This document shows positions 24,935-61,210 of a DNA stretch of 64,000 nt, one piece after another. The stretch is from Embleya hyalina. GTDB lineage: Bacteria > Actinomycetota > Actinomycetes > Streptomycetales > Streptomycetaceae. Below the pieces are notes generated by a model. It was not told the DNA's origin and ran no database searches. It was given only the letters and a program-made list of their open reading frames with translations. Within the stretch, counting starts at the first letter, position 1, and each line of letters begins with the position of its first letter. The position numbers and the translations under genes were made by a program. The stretch lies in NCBI RefSeq assembly GCF_003967355.1, contig NZ_BIFH01000041.1, positions 1-64,000 on the forward strand. The letters run 5' to 3'.

Positions 24935-25686
24935 AAGAGAGCATCTGATCTATGTTGATGGCGATTCGATCCGGTCGGCGTGACCGTGATGGCGACGGCG
25001 ACGGGTCGTTGCAGGACTCATGACTCCTCGACGTTCGTATCGCAGCGATGTATCCGATGCCAGGTGGGCCCTGATCGAACCGATCTTCACAGCCTGGCGT
25101 GCCCGGCGAACCGGGCCGGGCGCACAGGCCCGAGTGCACGACCTGCGCGAGATCGTGAACGCGATCCTCTACGTCAACCGCACCGGTATCCCGTCGGAGT
25201 ACCTGCCGCACGACTTCCCGCCGTGCGAAGACCGTGTACGACTACTTCGCGAAGCGGGAAAGCGACGGCACCACGCATCGGGCCCACAACCTGTTGCGCG
25301 ACCGGCCCCGTCGGTCGTCGGGACGCAGGGTCGCCGCGTCACGTCCCGACGTGGCCAAGATCCGGGTCGACGGCGGCTACACCAACGCCACGATCGACCA
25401 CGGAGCCACCCTGGGCATCGACGTGGAGGTCGTCAAACGCCCCTCCTCCCGCGGATTCCAACCATTGCCGAAGCGCTGGATGGTCGAGCGGACATTCGGC
25501 CGGGTCATGCAACACCGGCGCCTTGCACGGGACTACGAAACGTTGCCCCAACGATCCGGGGCAATGATCCACTGGGCCATGGCCAACACAATGAGCCGCG
25601 CTCTGACCGAGGAATCCACGCTTTCCTGGCGAACGGAAACGCATTTCCACACCATCTCGGCCTGAACGCAGATCAGATGCCCTCTT
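24935..25686 (+). mobile_element. Deleted IS5-type insertion sequence with terminal inverted repeats
   Basis: The ends match as inverted repeats: left AAGAGAGCATCTGATCTATG (from 24935) and right end, read on the minus strand, AAGAGGGCATCTGATCTGCG (from 25686), 17 of 20 identical. Between them lies one transposase gene with an internal deletion. Intact relatives are near 850-900 bases, against 752 here. No obvious target duplication flanks the ends (left GGC, right CGT). The intact ends could still be mobilised by a transposase supplied in trans. Confidence 0.8.
25020..25665 (+). pseudogene. IS5-family transposase, internally deleted and frameshifted
   Basis: N-terminal part from ATG 25020: MTPRRSYRSDVSDARWALIE, PIFTAWRARRTGPGAQARVH, DLREIVNAILYVNRTGIPSE, YLPHDFPP. 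The continuation TVYDYFAKRESDGTTHRAHN lies in another frame, then goes from RPRRSSGRRV to DVAKIRVDGGYTNATIDHGA, GIDVEVVKRPSSRGFQPLPK, RWMVERTFGRVMQHRRLARD. The central part that holds the first catalytic Asp (VDAQSVKTS region of relatives) is missing, while the second Asp (VDGGY) and final Glu (VERTF) remain. The product cannot be an active transposase. Confidence 0.85.
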
Positions 25687-27384: not shown

Positions 27385-28530
27385 CTACCGGGCGGCGAAG
27401 GCGCGGCCGATGGCGCGGCGTTGCATGCGGGTGTTGCCCGCGATGGCCTGCGAGGCCTTGGCTTCGCGCATCGAGCGCTCCACCGGCGGTATCGCGTGGC
27501 CGGCGGCATCACCGAAAACCTGCACGGCATCCTGGGTGACAGCCATTGCGGTGTCTGTGGTCGTGCCGACGACCGCGGAGGCGTGCCGAACGTAGGCCAG
27601 GGCGGCGAACGCGGCGGCGCGCGCGTCGAGGTGCACCGCCCGCGCGGAGTCGACGGCGTCCGCCATGCCGGCGAGGAGGTGCCCGAGACCGAGTCGGCCC
27701 GCGATCCGGCGGCCGGAACCGGTGCGCTCGGCGGCGTAGCGCACGGACGCGTCCAACGCGGCCTGCGCCGGTCCCGGTCGTGCAGGCGGCGATCCTCAGG
27801 CCCTGGCCTTCCACGCCCAGGAGCCGGTCGGGTTCGAAGAGGGCGCCGTCCCAGTACCCGGTCGCGGTCGGCACCGTCCGAAGGCCGACAGTCGACGCCG
27901 GGGCCTCGAAGTGCATCCGCTCGTCGGCGCCGGGCGCCAGGAAGCACGAGACGGCCTCGGGCTCGGGGCCGGTGCGGGCGAACAGGATGTAGAAGCCGGC
28001 TTTTCAGCCGGGCATCGTGCGTCGCGTGACCCCGGTGACCACGTGGCCGTCATCGGCCTTGACAGCGCTGCAGCCGAACGGGGTCTCGGATTCGCCGTGC
28101 CGCTCGGAGATGCCGAGGCCGCCGAGCCGTTGCCCCGCGAGCATGTCCGGAAGCGGGCGCGTTTGCTGGGCCGCGCTGCCGTAAACGGCCACCGGCAGAC
28201 CCGCAAGCGTGTGCGGCTGACCGCGACCCGGCGCTCCGTGAGTTCCTCCAGGACCCGCAGGTGGACCTCGTAGGGTTGCTCGCCGCCACCCTGGGCCCGG
28301 CTGTAGGGCGGGCTGAGCAGGTCGGCGCGCGCCGGCGCGGCGAACGCGTCCACCAGACAGTTGTCGTTGTGTTCGTGGTGCGCGACCTGGGGTGCGAGAT
28401 GTTCGTCGGCGACGCCACGCGCGATGAGGTGGTGGGCATCGGTCGTGGGGAGCCGGCGCTCCACGGGCACCGCGTCCTTCCGGGCAAGGCGGTCGGGGTA
28501 AGACGAGCGGTGTAGGGATCGGTGGTGCAT
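27385..28530 (-). pseudogene. Acyl-CoA dehydrogenase-like gene with several frameshifts
   Basis: Protein-like sequence hops between minus-strand frames. N-terminal piece: TTDAHHLIARGVADEHLAPQ, HNDNCLVDAFAAPARADLLS. Then MLAGQRLGGLGISERHGESE and SAVKADDGHVVTGVTRRTM (acyl-CoA dehydrogenase middle domain), then ERMHFEAPASTVGLRTVPTA, YWDGALFEPDRLLG, and in yet another frame SARAVHLDARAAAFAALAYV, MAVTQDAVQVFGDAAGHAIP and VERSMREAKASQAIAGNTRM to TAG 27385. This order is that of the FAD-dependent acyl-CoA dehydrogenase fold, including the GxxG..P.ER..RDAK-like C-terminal helix. At least three shifts are needed, so this is true decay rather than a single error. Confidence 0.8.
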
Positions 28531-29942: not shown

Positions 29943-30531
29943 GGAACCTCCCGGGAGCATGAGCAGGCGTGCGGACGCTCCTGCGGCAGCCACAACGGTC
30001 GATCCGTCGGGGCCCGCCCAGAGCTGCTACGGCCGGAGCCGGACCCATGAACTGTAGAACACTTCAACGATTGAAACGTCGCTCCTCACGCCCAGCCTCG
30101 CCGGCCGTTCCGGCGCACGTCACGTGGGTGGGTTCCTGCCCGAGCCCTGGCTGCCGCGCAGCATTTCGGTCGTGTCGAAACCGTGGCCGCTGGGGCGCCC
30201 GCCCGGTGGCCGCCGACCCGGTTCAACGTTTCGCCGACCTACGACGAGCGCACAGGCCGGGTTGGGTCTACCGGCAGTGACCTCGGCGCGGCGGTGGATC
30301 GCCCGGAAGCCCTCGACGGCCGGGCGTGCGGTCACCTCCGGGAACCTGGGCTACACCGACCGCGACATCGACCACCTCCGCACGGCTCGCGACCCTGAAT
30401 GCCCACGCCGCAGACCCCCTCGCACCCCACCCCCTCCGCGACCGCACCGGAGCCCACGCGGCGGCCGTGCACGCGATCGTCGAAGACCACGAACGATCCC
30501 GCCCGCCTCGATCACCCGAGATGGAACACTG
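29943..30531. other. Divergent upstream region with a small ORF remnant
   Basis: Carries the promoter of the leftward PucR gene. In the right part a plus-strand frame ends at TGA 30530-30532 and reads LNAHAADPLAPHPLRDRTGA, HAAAVHAIVEDHERSRPPR. Its stop overlaps the ATG of the next gene (TGATG), which suggests a coupled small gene whose 5' end is unclear. I associate such small genes with integrative-element cargo in streptomycetes, but cannot verify that here. Confidence 0.35.
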
Positions 30532-31194
30532 ATGGCCCGACGGACCCGCAACCGGGAGGACGAACGCACCCCGATCCGGGCGGCAGCCGACCGCCTCCTC
30601 GCCGGGACACCACTGCGCTCGACCTCCGGCAGACCCACCGTCACCGAACCGATCACCGAATGCGGACTACGCCGGGACGTTGTCCACGAACACGGCAACC
30701 TCGTCGGCAAGTTCAAGGCCCGACGCAAAACGCGACACGCGACACCCACCGCACTTCGCGAACTCACCGACCGCAACACCGCGCTCGTCGACGAGTTGGT
30801 GCTCGACGGCGCGATCACCGCACGCATCCGCCATCGCCTGGGCCGGGCACACGAACGCATCGACCGCGGCGAGTTGCCCGCGTTGCGCGAGTACGACCCC
30901 GTGGGCGGCATGACGGGCCTCGGCGCCTACCTTCTCCACCAAGGCCAAGTCACCCTGCGCCTCCGGGACGTCCTCGGCTACCTCACGCGCCTGACCCACC
31001 CGATCCGCTCGGGCACCGACGAACTTCCCGGCTGGTGGACCCGGGACTCGCCGACCGGACAACCCTCGCCCCACTGGCCCGGCGGTCACCTCAACCTCGG
31101 CATCGCGCACGGATGCACGGGCGTCCTGGCACTATGTCGACGGCGATGAGACACGGTGTAACCGTTCCCGAACACGCCGAAGCCATGGCCCGCA
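30532..31194 (+). pseudogene. Helical protein fused to a broken LanC-like cyclase domain
   Basis: ATG 30532 opens a 205-residue frame ending at TGA 31149. Residues 1-90 (MARRTRNREDERTPIRAAAD, RLLAGTPLRSTSGRPTVTEP, GLRRDVVHEHGNLVGKFKAR) resemble a small DNA-binding-like protein. From about residue 91 (base 30802) the sequence is LanC-like: HRLGRAHERIDRGELPALRE, GGMTGLGAYLLH, LRDVLGYLTRLTHPI, DELPGWWTRD and WPGGHLNLGIAHGCTG (184-197). Just after LALCRRR the LanC sense continues in another frame (STAMRHGVTVPEHAEAMARI) until about 31194. The zinc-binding C-terminal half of LanC is missing. LanC closes thioether rings in lanthipeptides; this copy cannot. No LanB/LanM gene is nearby. Confidence 0.75.
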
Positions 31195-31385
31195 TCAGGG
31201 TGGTGAGCGCCAGGATGAACAAGCCGCCGCAGCCGTCGCCAGAGGCGGACTTCTTCCGGGACCGCGATCCCCCCGGGTCGTTTGCCGCTGGAGTGCTTGG
31301 CGCAGTAGCGCTCGCCGGGACGGGCGTTGTTGCCGCAGGTCTTCCCGCCCCGGCTGCCTTTGGTGGACCTTCGGCAGGTGCCCAT
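31091..31385 (-). pseudogene. Small Cys-rich, membrane-anchored protein, frameshifted at a G run
   Basis: ATG 31385 has AAGGGGGACG upstream. The product begins MGTCRRSTKGSRGGKTCGNN and ARPGERYCAKHSSGKRPGG, with Cys/His spacing that could bind zinc (C-x7-11-C-x10-C-x2-H). At a run of six G (minus strand, near 31271-31276) the coherent sense moves to the neighbouring frame: SRSRKKSASGDGCGGLFILA and LTTLM, a basic stretch then a hydrophobic helix. One base in the homopolymer explains it. The 3' end overlaps the LanC remnant on the other strand, so the true C-terminus is unclear. Confidence 0.45.
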
Positions 31386-31692
31386 GCGATCGTCCCCCTT
31401 CGATCGTTGGTCACCCCATGGTCGAATCATCGCGCGCTGTGCGGGATTTCGCGCGGACCCGACGGTCGGGACGGTCGAGTGCGGGCCCCGACGATCCGGA
31501 TACCGCCGTCGGGAGGGTCCCGGTTCACGTACCGGGTCCTCGATGCCTCCGGGACCGCGATGTGGTCCCGCTCCGTCGCGGCGAGTTGATCGCGCCGGAA
31601 GAGGACATCACCGGGCGAGACGGTCTGTGCTTTCACGAAGGTCGCTGGTGAGACGGTGTCCGGTCGCAGGAACACGGAGCCTCGCTGCCGTC

Positions 31693-32136
31693 TCAGGTAT
31701 CCTCGATGGTCTCCATGGTGCAAGTGCTGGGGAGATACGTGTTGTTGTTGTAGTTACCCGCGCAAGCACGGAATGCCACCGCGTTGTTCTCGGTAAAGGA
31801 CTTGTTCAGGTACCGCCAGCCGGCGTCCTTCCCGGCCGTGTTCCAGATTTGCCCGGAACGGGACTGGCCAGTGTCGCTGTCGTAGAACTCCCACAGAATC
31901 ACGACAGGGTAGTTGTCCGCGTTCGCGTCCCGGATCTTGAACCATTCACCCTCACCGGCGAAGCAGGCCTCGGCGTACGTGGTTCCGATATCGGTGCACT
32001 TCCAGCCGTGGGGTCCGCTCGGACCGGACGAATCGGTCGCCAGTTGCTTTCCGTCTGCTGCGTGCGCGGTTCCCGAACAAGTAAGCGCCAGCAACCCGGC
32101 GGAGATAAGAGCCAGAGCCTTGGACCTGGTTCGCAT
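31693..32136 (-). CDS. Small secreted protein of unknown function
   Basis: A 147-residue exported protein with signal peptide MRTRSKALALISAGLLALTC followed by SGTAHAADG (cleavage near residue 27). The mature part is rich in aromatic, Asn and Asp residues (WKCTDIGTTYAEACFAGEGE, WFKIRDANADNYPVVILWEF, YDSDTGQSRSGQIWNTAGKD, FRACAGNYNNNTYLPSTCTM) with four Cys that could form two disulfides. Codon use is clearly less GC-rich than in neighbouring genes, consistent with recent acquisition. ATG 32136 follows AGGAAGAAG. I do not recognise a family; it looks like a compact beta-rich extracellular domain. Confidence 0.75.
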   Translation of the reverse strand: MRTRSKALALISAGLLALTCSGTAHAADGKQLATDSSGPSGPHGWKCTDIGTTYAEACFAGEGEWFKIRDANADNYPVVILWEFYDSDTGQSRSGQIWNTAGKDAGWRYLNKSFTENNAVAFRACAGNYNNNTYLPSTCTMETIEDT

Positions 32137-32480
32137 CTTCTTCCTGCCTTCCTGTGAGATTGCGCGGATGTCGGTGTATGCGAAGCTTCCGCGTCGGAGG
32201 TGGTCGAGTTCGTCTCAGGGGACGCGGGTGTCGCATGCGCGGTGGCGACGGTGCCGCCCGGTCACCAGGGCTGCGCCCGGAACAACGCCGGTCAGCCAGG
32301 CGCAAGTACGCATGCGTGTGCCCCCTTCGGCTTCGTGGGCGTGCGTGAACAACCGGAAGCCCGTCGAGCGATCGCGCCCGGTGGCGCCGTGCTTTACCGC
32401 GGGGCGAAGCCACGGCTCGCTCGCTGCTCCATGACCGGCTTCCGGAACCAGCATGTCGGAGGCAACCACACTCGCCCGTG

Positions 32481-33482
32481 TCAATTCGCGCAGAGCTGGT
32501 GCCGATTCGCGCACGCCTGACGCGACCGGTCCCGGTAGTCCCGTGGCGGCATCCCGTAGGTGGCGTGGAACAGGCGACTGAAGTGCTTCGGGTCCGTGAA
32601 GCCCCAGCGGGCGGCGATGGCCCGCATGGGGAGGGCGTTCAGGCCGGGTGCGGCCAGATCCAGCCGGCAGTGTTCCAGGCGGCGGTGGCGTATCCAGGCC
32701 GCCGGGGAGGTGCCGTCCTCGGCGAGCAACTGCTGGAGGAGACGCCGGGAGATGTGGTGAGCGTCCGCCACCGCCCCGGGCGTGAGGTCCGGGTCGGCCA
32801 GGTGCCGTTCGACGAACGCGACGACTCGCGCACGCAGAGCCGTCCTTCGGGCCTCCGGACTCAGCGTCTCCTCCGCCTCCAGGCAGCGGGCCATCACGGA
32901 TCCCAGGAGATCGACGGTAACCGAGGCCAGGGTGGGGACGTCGTCGGGAGTGAACTCGTCGGCGCGCGCGTTGAGGTCGCACAGCCAGCGGGCGAACATC
33001 CCGCCCATGCCGCTGCGCCCGCTGATCGGAACGGCGAACAGGCGCCGGATCGTCTTCGCCGGTAGCGGCAGCAGTCCCCGCGGACACTGCACGGTCATGT
33101 GCGACCACCTGCCGGGATCGGCGTGGACATCACCTCGGTAGGGACGGCTGCTGTCCATCACCATGAGGTCGCCGGTACGCACCGTCGTGTCGTACTTGCC
33201 CGCGGAGACGATGCCCTGTCCACCGAGAAAGTAGTTGATCTGATACACCTCGGGGTCGGACTGTCGGATCAGCCGCGGTGTCCGCACGACTTCCAGATGC
33301 GAGTAGGCGAGCGCGGCCACCTGTACTTCCGCCAGGTCCAAGCCGCGCATTTCGGCGCGGAAGTCGTTGCGGTCGTTGCTGTGCAGGCGATTGCGCATGT
33401 GCGACCGTTCCGTCGCGTCCTCCCACAAGGCGAACCGCTCCGGTGCCGCCACGATGTTCGTACTGAACTCCGTCACGAGCAT
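32481..33482 (-). CDS. AraC-family transcriptional regulator
   Basis: A 333-residue regulator. The N-terminal 200 residues form the AraC_binding_2 (cupin-like) domain: INYFLGGQGIVSAGKYDTTV, RTGDLMVMDSSRPYRGDVHA, WSHMTVQCPRGLLPLPA. The C-terminal two helix-turn-helix units are in ARVVAFVERHLADPDLTPGA, VADAHHISRRLLQQLLAEDG, SPAAWIRHRRLEHCRLDLA and PMRAIAARWGFTDPKHFSRL, FHATYGMPPRDYRDR. ATG 33482 follows GGGAGCTGAGA. It may control the adjacent secreted protein gene lying downstream on the same strand; that is context only. Confidence 0.88.
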   Translation of the reverse strand: MLVTEFSTNIVAAPERFALWEDATERSHMRNRLHSNDRNDFRAEMRGLDLAEVQVAALAYSHLEVVRTPRLIRQSDPEVYQINYFLGGQGIVSAGKYDTTVRTGDLMVMDSSRPYRGDVHADPGRWSHMTVQCPRGLLPLPAKTIRRLFAVPISGRSGMGGMFARWLCDLNARADEFTPDDVPTLASVTVDLLGSVMARCLEAEETLSPEARRTALRARVVAFVERHLADPDLTPGAVADAHHISRRLLQQLLAEDGTSPAAWIRHRRLEHCRLDLAAPGLNALPMRAIAARWGFTDPKHFSRLFHATYGMPPRDYRDRSRQACANRHQLCAN

Positions 33483-33791
33483 TCTCAGCTCCCGTAGCCG
33501 GTCGTCCCGAAGCTTCGAACATGGCACGAGGAAGCGTCCGCAGGCCAGCAGCGCTTCAGCCACATGCGCTGCAACGCCTCTTCTCACGACTGGGCTGTGC
33601 CCCCGCGCCACCGGCATCGTCGGCGCATTTCCGAGTCTGTCGGTGGCCCCACCAGCGGCGCGGGAAACGCCGGCCGCCGGCCGACCGGATCGACAGGAGT
33701 TCGCCCACGACGCTCGGGCACCACCGATCGTCGCCGGTGCCGTCCCGGGGCCCGCCTGTCATGCTGTTTTCTCCAGGACGGGGGGACGCGG

Positions 33792-59608: not shown

Positions 59609-61210
59609 TCACGACGCGGGCTTGAGTTGCGCCACCCACGCGGCCGGACCGTACGCGGAGGAGAAGGGGTTCAGCTCGGGCCACGCGAACCTGCCGGACA
59701 GCGCCAGAGCGTTCTTGCCGAGGTAGAGGGGGATGTAGGGAACATCCTCGGCGGCGAGCCTGTCCAGGGCGGAGTACGCCTGGAATCGGCCGGCCCGGTC
59801 GGTCGTGGAGATTCCCGCCTTGACCAGCTTGTCGGCCTCCGGGTTGCGGTAGGCGGCGTAGTTCGCGTAGGCGACGTCGGCCTGGGAACCGTCGAGGAGG
59901 AAGCCGGCCGTGGTGTTCGGCTCCTCCGAGCAGTCCAGGCGCTGGATCGTGAGCTGGACCTTGTCCTTGGCTGCTCCTTCACCGACGCGCTGGGTGTACT
60001 GGGCCTCGGAGAGGACCTTCACGTCGAGTTCGATCCCGGCCTTCGCGACCATGCCTGCGATGGCCTGGGCGATCTTGGGACGGACTCCGTCCTCGGGAAC
60101 CTCGAAGGTTCCCTTGACGCCGTCCGGGTGGCCGGACCGCGCGATCTCCTCCTTCGCCTTGGTCAGGTCGAACCCGTACGTCGGGAGCGAGCCGATCATG
60201 GCGTCGATGTCCGCCTTGTCGGCCACCTTTGCCAGGACCTGGGCCGGGAGCAGGCTGTCGTAGGGAACCGCGTCGTCGCCTTCGGCGATCGCGAGGTCCT
60301 TGCGGTTCAGCGCGTAGGCGAAGGCGCGCCGGACGTGCACGTCGTTCCAGGGGTCCACCTGGGTGTTCAGCGACATGAACGTCTGCTTGCAGCCGGGGAC
60401 GCTCACCGGCTTCGCCTTGGAGCTCGCGGCGAACGCCCGGGGGTCCGCGAGCGGGTACACGGCGTCGAGTCCGCCGGACCGGTAGGCGAGCGCGGCGCTG
60501 GTCACGGTCTTGAAGGGCTTGACCGACACCTTGCGGATCGTCGGCGTGCCGCCCCACCAGTCCGGGTTGGCGGAGAACTCCGCGCCTTCGGTCGGGTTCA
60601 GGGTGTCGACCCGGTACGGCCCGGTCGCCATGGTCAGGGTGCCCGGCTTGCCGAAGTCGGTCTTGTGCTCGTCGTGGAACTTCTTCTGGAAGATGCTCGC
60701 TCCCACGCTGGCGAGCAGTGACAGCACACTGGCGTCGGCCTGTTTCATCGTGAGGACGACGGTGTACGGGTCCTTCGCGGTCACGTTCGCCACGTTCACG
60801 AACAGCGACTCGTACGGGGACGGCGACAGGCGGTCGTAGTCGAGCGAGGCCACCACGTCGGCCGACGTCATCTCGGTGCCGTCCCAGAACTTGACGCCCT
60901 TGCGCAGGTGGAAGACGTACGTGAGGGCGTCGGGGGTGTCCCACGACTCCGCGAGACCCGGGGCCAGTTGGCCCTCGGCGTCGGCGGTGAGCAGGGCGTC
61001 GTAGACCGTGGCGAGCAGGGCGTTGCCCGAGGTCAGCGTGAGCGGGTCGACGCTGTCGAGGCTGTCCGCGACGATTCCCCACCGGAGGTGGTCCGCTTTC
61101 CCGCCGATGGCTCCCGGCTTCTCGGCGCCGTTGCAGCCGGTCAGCAGCGCTGCCACACATACACCGGTGGCGCCGACCGCCACGAGTCTCTTGGACCTCT
61201 TACGCGTCAT
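59609..61210 (-). CDS. Peptide-binding lipoprotein (SBP family 5)
   Basis: A 533-residue extracytoplasmic solute-binding protein. The lipoprotein signal MTRKRSKRLVAVGATGVCVA is followed by ALLTGCNGAEKPG with the lipidated Cys near residue 26. Family-5 marks: WDTPDALTYVFHLRKGVKFW, DGTEMTSADVVASLDYDRLS, FDLTKAKEEIARSGHPDGVK, VRRAFAYALNRKDLAIAEGD. It captures peptides outside and hands them to the permeases. ATG 61210 has GAGGAGG upstream. First gene of the import operon and divergent from the PucR regulator. Confidence 0.93.
   Translation of the reverse strand: MTRKRSKRLVAVGATGVCVAALLTGCNGAEKPGAIGGKADHLRWGIVADSLDSVDPLTLTSGNALLATVYDALLTADAEGQLAPGLAESWDTPDALTYVFHLRKGVKFWDGTEMTSADVVASLDYDRLSPSPYESLFVNVANVTAKDPYTVVLTMKQADASVLSLLASVGASIFQKKFHDEHKTDFGKPGTLTMATGPYRVDTLNPTEGAEFSANPDWWGGTPTIRKVSVKPFKTVTSAALAYRSGGLDAVYPLADPRAFAASSKAKPVSVPGCKQTFMSLNTQVDPWNDVHVRRAFAYALNRKDLAIAEGDDAVPYDSLLPAQVLAKVADKADIDAMIGSLPTYGFDLTKAKEEIARSGHPDGVKGTFEVPEDGVRPKIAQAIAGMVAKAGIELDVKVLSEAQYTQRVGEGAAKDKVQLTIQRLDCSEEPNTTAGFLLDGSQADVAYANYAAYRNPEADKLVKAGISTTDRAGRFQAYSALDRLAAEDVPYIPLYLGKNALALSGRFAWPELNPFSSAYGPAAWVAQLKPAS

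Follow-up and report, generated by a model that had tools for sequence, protein, structure and literature searches.

The 205-amino-acid open frame that runs from the ATG at 30532 to the TGA at 31147–31149 belongs, with a probability of roughly 90%, to a rearranged chimeric pseudogene composed of mobile-element and lanthipeptide debris. Within approximately 1.1 kb of the window (the whole 64,000-nucleotide stretch that was analysed, in whose coordinates all positions are given), fragments of three unrelated loci adjoin one another, each of them truncated and each frameshifted, and it is this density of broken pieces that argues for a rearranged pseudogene. The initial annotation had described an in-frame fusion of a small protein with a broken LanC-like cyclase, and this description stood, because two unrelated protein pieces meet at around residue 90, with the boundary at approximately 30796–30805. 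Its suggestion that a lanthipeptide locus had been joined to other DNA, leaving the frame as a scar, was also upheld, whereas the alternative that it offered, a new hybrid gene, found no support. The broken region is wider than it had reported, extending from approximately 30334 to 31479, and includes a broken recombinase upstream and a broken Cys-rich gene downstream, both of which it had missed. The pieces are as follows.

30334–30532, forward strand: C-terminal end of the last recombinase of an integrase–hypothetical–integrase–small-gene operon, with its frames split at about 30381 (tblastn, L041).
30532–30798, forward strand: first 89–90 or so residues of the small recombinase partner, truncated (59% and 49% identity to plasmid copies; 103 bits with a six-relative profile).
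30796–31134, forward strand: middle of a LanC, in frame with the small-partner piece (Pfam, 26.1 bits; 61% identity to L002; 54% to an FxLD LanC).
31134–31202, forward strand: LanC resumed in a different frame, shifted by one base, before the homology is lost (profile positions 210–232; L002).
31193–31479, reverse strand: remnant of a small Cys-rich gene (69–79% DNA identity to copies in the genus; final 8 residues gone, frameshifted).

The second half of the frame had initially been read as LanC up to the motif GGHLNLGIAHG, and two profiles agreed with this. Residues 99–202 aligned with positions 79–173 of the 350-position Pfam family LANC_like (PF05147), and the score was above the curated cut-off of 23.2 bits; such a match was what the initial reading depended on. 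A profile built from 38 LanC relatives, with which the three forward frames of 30100–31600 were searched, gave 155.8 bits at 30796–31134 in one frame. In a second frame, at 31134–31202, the same profile resumed with position 210 directly after position 209 and ended at position 232 (8.5 bits), and the best score in the third forward frame was −4.4 bits, elsewhere in the searched region. The relatives came from 51 loci (L002–L030 and L055–L076) that were read on both strands and screened by motif, with 38 kept and 13 dropped. The nearest LanC, L002, was 61% identical over 113 residues, and its residues 613–633 aligned at 31134–31196, after the frameshift, with 67% identity over 21 residues. The resumption of the LanC sense in another frame for about 20 residues, as first proposed, was therefore recovered both by the profile and by the nearest relative. 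A programmed −1 frameshift at 31134 was considered and rejected; no slippery heptamer was seen by eye, and the LanC homology in any case ends about 65 bases further on.

The LanC piece retains the YD..G and GGHLNLGIAHG motifs but stops at position 232 of 400 in the profile, short of the WCYG and CHG motifs that its relatives have. About a third of LanC is thus present, split over two frames, and not the full α/α toroid in one continuous frame. As described for NisC, LanC cyclases require a zinc ion, whose ligands are Cys284, Cys330, and His331, and Asp141 and His212, which lie near the zinc, are the proposed acid/base residues (PMC9889658). The piece aligned with chain residues 132–212 of NisC (E = 0.16) and with residues 150–241 of MadC (E = 4.6e-5). 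In a manual count on the NisC alignment, which assumed that the chain and the published numbering differ by 6, it spans the Asp and the His and contains none of the three zinc ligands. Since roughly one-third of the toroid is left, lacking these ligands and carrying a frameshift, the piece is not expected, judging from its sequence, to have cyclase activity.

Residues 1–90 had been recognized as a separate small protein, which was correct, and no family had been named for them; they correspond to the small partner of a recombinase operon. Comparison with relatives showed two separate families and no continuous single-family protein across the frame. The best plasmid copies were a 146-amino-acid protein from Rhodococcus (59% identity over residues 1–100) and a 145-amino-acid protein from [Kitasatospora] papulosa (49% identity). 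Of the 12 rows from the search of 100 relatives that matched the N-terminal half only, six were fetched, and these genome loci were 38–51% identical to residues 1–90; a profile of six small-partner relatives scored 103 bits on the N-terminal piece. The plasmid relatives are 143–146 amino acids long, and only residues 1 to approximately 90 are present here, so the homology does not extend over the full length of the family. In all three fetched plasmid records with annotation at the place (L085, L086, and L107), the small gene follows genes for an integrase, a hypothetical protein, and an integrase, with a stop/start overlap before it (in L085 the small gene is unannotated, although the frame is present); a fourth fetched record, L108, had no gene table there. 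A further plasmid match (H6, residues 5–144) was to a 143-amino-acid small gene behind the same three genes, with no LanC annotation. The end of this arrangement is seen in the window, where the recombinase stub lies directly upstream and its TGA overlaps the small-partner ATG (TGATG). NCBIfam and PHROGs contained nothing matching the N-terminal piece and gave chance-level rows for some of its relatives, and in Pfam one relative matched DUF6262 with 13.7 bits, under the cut-off of 29. The possibility that residues 1–90 are also LanC was rejected, since the small-partner family matches residues 1–100 at 49–59% in plasmids. Some LanC rows extended back to residues 68–80 of the fusion, and one plasmid row (H4) covered residues 24–201 at 34% identity; this match starts 12 bases before the start codon of that LanC, indicating a weak extension along the N-terminus of LanC itself.

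The stub upstream consists of two pieces in different frames, at 30334–30381 and 30383–30505, which were found by tblastn with two plasmid recombinases, and residues 680–727 of the L041 open reading frame aligned at 30383–30526. The L041 recombinase itself gave weak integrase rows in NCBIfam/PHROGs (16.7 and 12.9 bits) and no match in Pfam or the PDB. Upstream of 30532, the frame of the fusion stays open back to a GTG at 30124. In a genus mate (G003:C1551, L093), a recombinase end and a small-partner piece occur in one stop-to-stop frame of 629 amino acids.

On the other side of the LanC piece, the Cys-rich remnant gave DNA matches spanning approximately 250–290 bp, with 79% identity to G001:C155, 74% to two near-identical places in G003, and 69% to a second copy in this genome (contig C13, G000:C13:868169-868417); relatives were thus present in two of the three other genus genomes. 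The relatives L046, L047/L048, and L049 align up to 8 residues before their ends. A frameshift lies between 31269 and 31276, where the window has an extra base near 31270, in a C run, relative to L046, L047, and L049. The Cys-rich open frame extends into antisense LanC. At approximately 31174–31199 the DNA is similar to a LanC as well as to the Cys-rich gene, which limits how precisely the second join can be located. Members of the Cys-rich family carry a C..YC.KH-type motif and a hydrophobic tail, and two members that were scanned had no Pfam family above the cut-off.

Farther from the frame, pieces of an acyl-CoA dehydrogenase occur in different frames at 27388–28530 on the reverse strand, with the C-terminal domain at 27388–27756 (43.8 bits) and the N-terminal domain, below the cut-off (17.5 bits), in 27799–28530, seemingly the remains of a further broken gene. 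The PucR-type regulator beside these pieces appears intact, and its best matches outside this genome were 34–38% identical, with no ortholog seen in a search for synteny in the genus. At 31696–33617, the reverse strand encodes an AraC-type regulator and a small protein that looks secreted, and relatives of the two lie side by side in G001:C190.

No other copy of the fusion was found. None was present among the matches listed from 100 relatives (49 with a match to either half) or among those listed from 394 genomes of the family (208 with matches), where the listing reached E values of approximately 4e-22 and a good fused copy should have ranked above this. Forty plasmid records matched; the best 20 were listed and query coverage was tallied over all 40, and the single place with 80% coverage was H4, a plain LanC. 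A scan of genome contigs with the fusion gave 43 pattern stretches and no confirmed relative. At the DNA level, 2.3 kb of the locus had no full-length match in three genus mates, and the search of four genomes of the genus with this sequence returned, outside the window, the Cys-rich gene, the secreted-protein gene, and four matches of <60 bases.

These searches bear on the proposal that the frame is a newly arisen hybrid gene with a function of its own, the N-terminal region of a recombinase partner having acquired a LanC fragment that might serve, for instance, as a scaffold for binding peptides. If this were true, the 205-amino-acid hybrid would be translated, and its LanC fragment, with the acid/base motifs and without the metal site, would serve as a non-catalytic peptide- or protein-binding tail. 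The frame is open and keeps the native start of the small partner, the YD..G and AHG motifs are retained, and GC by codon position in the fused part (0.73/0.56/0.82) is coding-like at the third position, as in three neighbouring genes (0.79/0.53/0.85, 0.69/0.50/0.86, and 0.50/0.54/0.78). In the 38 LanC relatives, however, the corresponding 336-base stretch was stop-free not only in the coding frame (38 of 38) but also in 3 and 24 cases in the other two forward frames, that is, in 65 of 114 forward frames. A random join into such a stretch would therefore often read through, and the open frame is little evidence of a gene. The coding-like GC is the main observation favouring a living gene, but a recent scar would be expected to keep it too, and the retained start is likewise what would be expected of a young scar. 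Meanwhile, the LanC toroid is cut and frameshifted where the fused frame ends, the flanking genes on both sides are also broken, and a second fused copy was lacking among the listed matches and in the plasmid records. We regard a functional hybrid gene as highly improbable, and the same applies to a translated product with a binding tail.

An assembly or sequencing artefact that joined unrelated sequences, or that produced single frameshifts (most of all that near 31270, within a C run), would also account for mosaic pieces within 1.1 kb, and the genome is a draft of 78 contigs with an estimated contamination of 3.97%. Nevertheless, the locus lies inside a 152-kb contig and not at its edge, a misjoin would need closer matches elsewhere in the genome than those found (LanC, 44% protein identity; Cys-rich gene, 69% DNA identity), neither the small partner nor the recombinase has a match elsewhere in the genome at E ≤ 0.001, and each piece has decayed in its own way; we consider an artefact very improbable. 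A more specific history, which overlaps with the pseudogene reading, is that a GInt-like island with an FxLD lanthipeptide cargo decayed by a deletion running from the end of its operon into the cargo. The recombinase end, the small partner, and lanC follow one another in the order and on the strand that this would require, and the cargo of GInt islands is described as beginning directly next to the ginD stop codon, on either side of it (PMC5385486). On a Streptomyces plasmid (L107, NZ_CP109047.1), mercury-resistance genes lie directly behind an operon of the same kind, as GInt-like cargo might. On the other hand, the join lies inside the small partner, approximately 55 codons before its usual end. 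Moreover, when 62 recombinase rows from 51 of the 394 genomes (E ≤ 1e-30, two candidates scored per genome) were compared by eye with the LanC matches listed, at least two near pairs (≤21 kb) were present, and the two seen, at 20.6 kb in G045:C67 and 12.4 kb in G294:C1, both had LanC upstream of the recombinase and not on the cargo side. We consider this island history unlikely, if still a realistic variant of the preferred reading.

Under the preferred reading of a rearranged pseudogene, one or more deletions or illegitimate joins would have produced the locus. At the first join, the small partner would have lost its 3′ end and lanC its 5′ part, together with any partner genes upstream of lanC, and the reading frame would have been kept by chance (one in three); the second would have removed the 3′ part of lanC and the final codons of the Cys-rich gene. 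In the simplest history, a recombinase operon lay beside a lanthipeptide cluster, a deletion that began within the small partner reached into lanC, and the Cys-rich gene was brought in by a second join; separate events for the joins are as possible as this single-neighbourhood history, and the searches found no relative with the locus as it was before rearrangement. If a protein were made, it would consist of a truncated recombinase partner followed by a LanC tail without catalytic activity. The pieces suggest that an FxLD-like lanC and an integrase–hypothetical–integrase–small recombinase operon were once present in this genome or in a source of its DNA. The locus is otherwise ordinary, a genuine rearrangement scar and a common kind of dead gene, and it illustrates clearly, on a small scale, how long open frames arise across gene scars in GC-rich genomes, where an annotator could call a 205-amino-acid "LanC-like" protein that is a chimera of debris.

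Among known systems, the LanC piece can be compared with the FxLD LanC on a plasmid of Streptomyces sp. NBC_01174, which is encoded with an FxLD precursor, LanB, and FxlM. The two are 54% identical in a 125-residue alignment that starts at 30760, i.e., before the join, and both have the YD..G motif and a GHxNLGxAHG-type motif. They differ in that only the middle of the protein is present here, frameshifted and without the zinc-ligand part, and in that no partner genes were found. Specifically, a tblastn search of the 64-kb window with a query set limited to the FxLD precursor, LanB, and FxlM of two clusters gave no match at E ≤ 0.01; the initial observation had been that no LanB, LanM, or precursor is adjacent. 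These three components of the two clusters are thus not seen near the LanC piece, and weak window rows (28% at 60347–60565; others at 25350 and 34610) look like chance. Relatives of the FxLD LanC and FxlM lie near each other in G002:C5 and G003:C18, in the same genus, among other places. In this genome, the FxLD query matched a single other LanC, at 37% identity, and seven other regions scored above the LANC_like cut-off. The window copy of the Cys-rich gene differs from those in G001:C155, G003, and C13 in lacking its final 8 residues at the join with LanC. The recombinase side can be compared with the ginABCD genes of GInt islands, which are described as three putative integrases, one of which frequently bears the annotation "hypothetical", together with a small GinD that may contain a helix–loop–helix and has low identity to TnpC of Tn554 (PMC5385486). 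As far as that description goes, the relatives of residues 1–90 are alike in being small genes behind an integrase–hypothetical–integrase series in the three annotated plasmid records, and by position and size alone the small partner resembles GinD, whereas here, unlike ginABCD or TnpC, there remain only its first 90 residues and a frameshifted recombinase stub.
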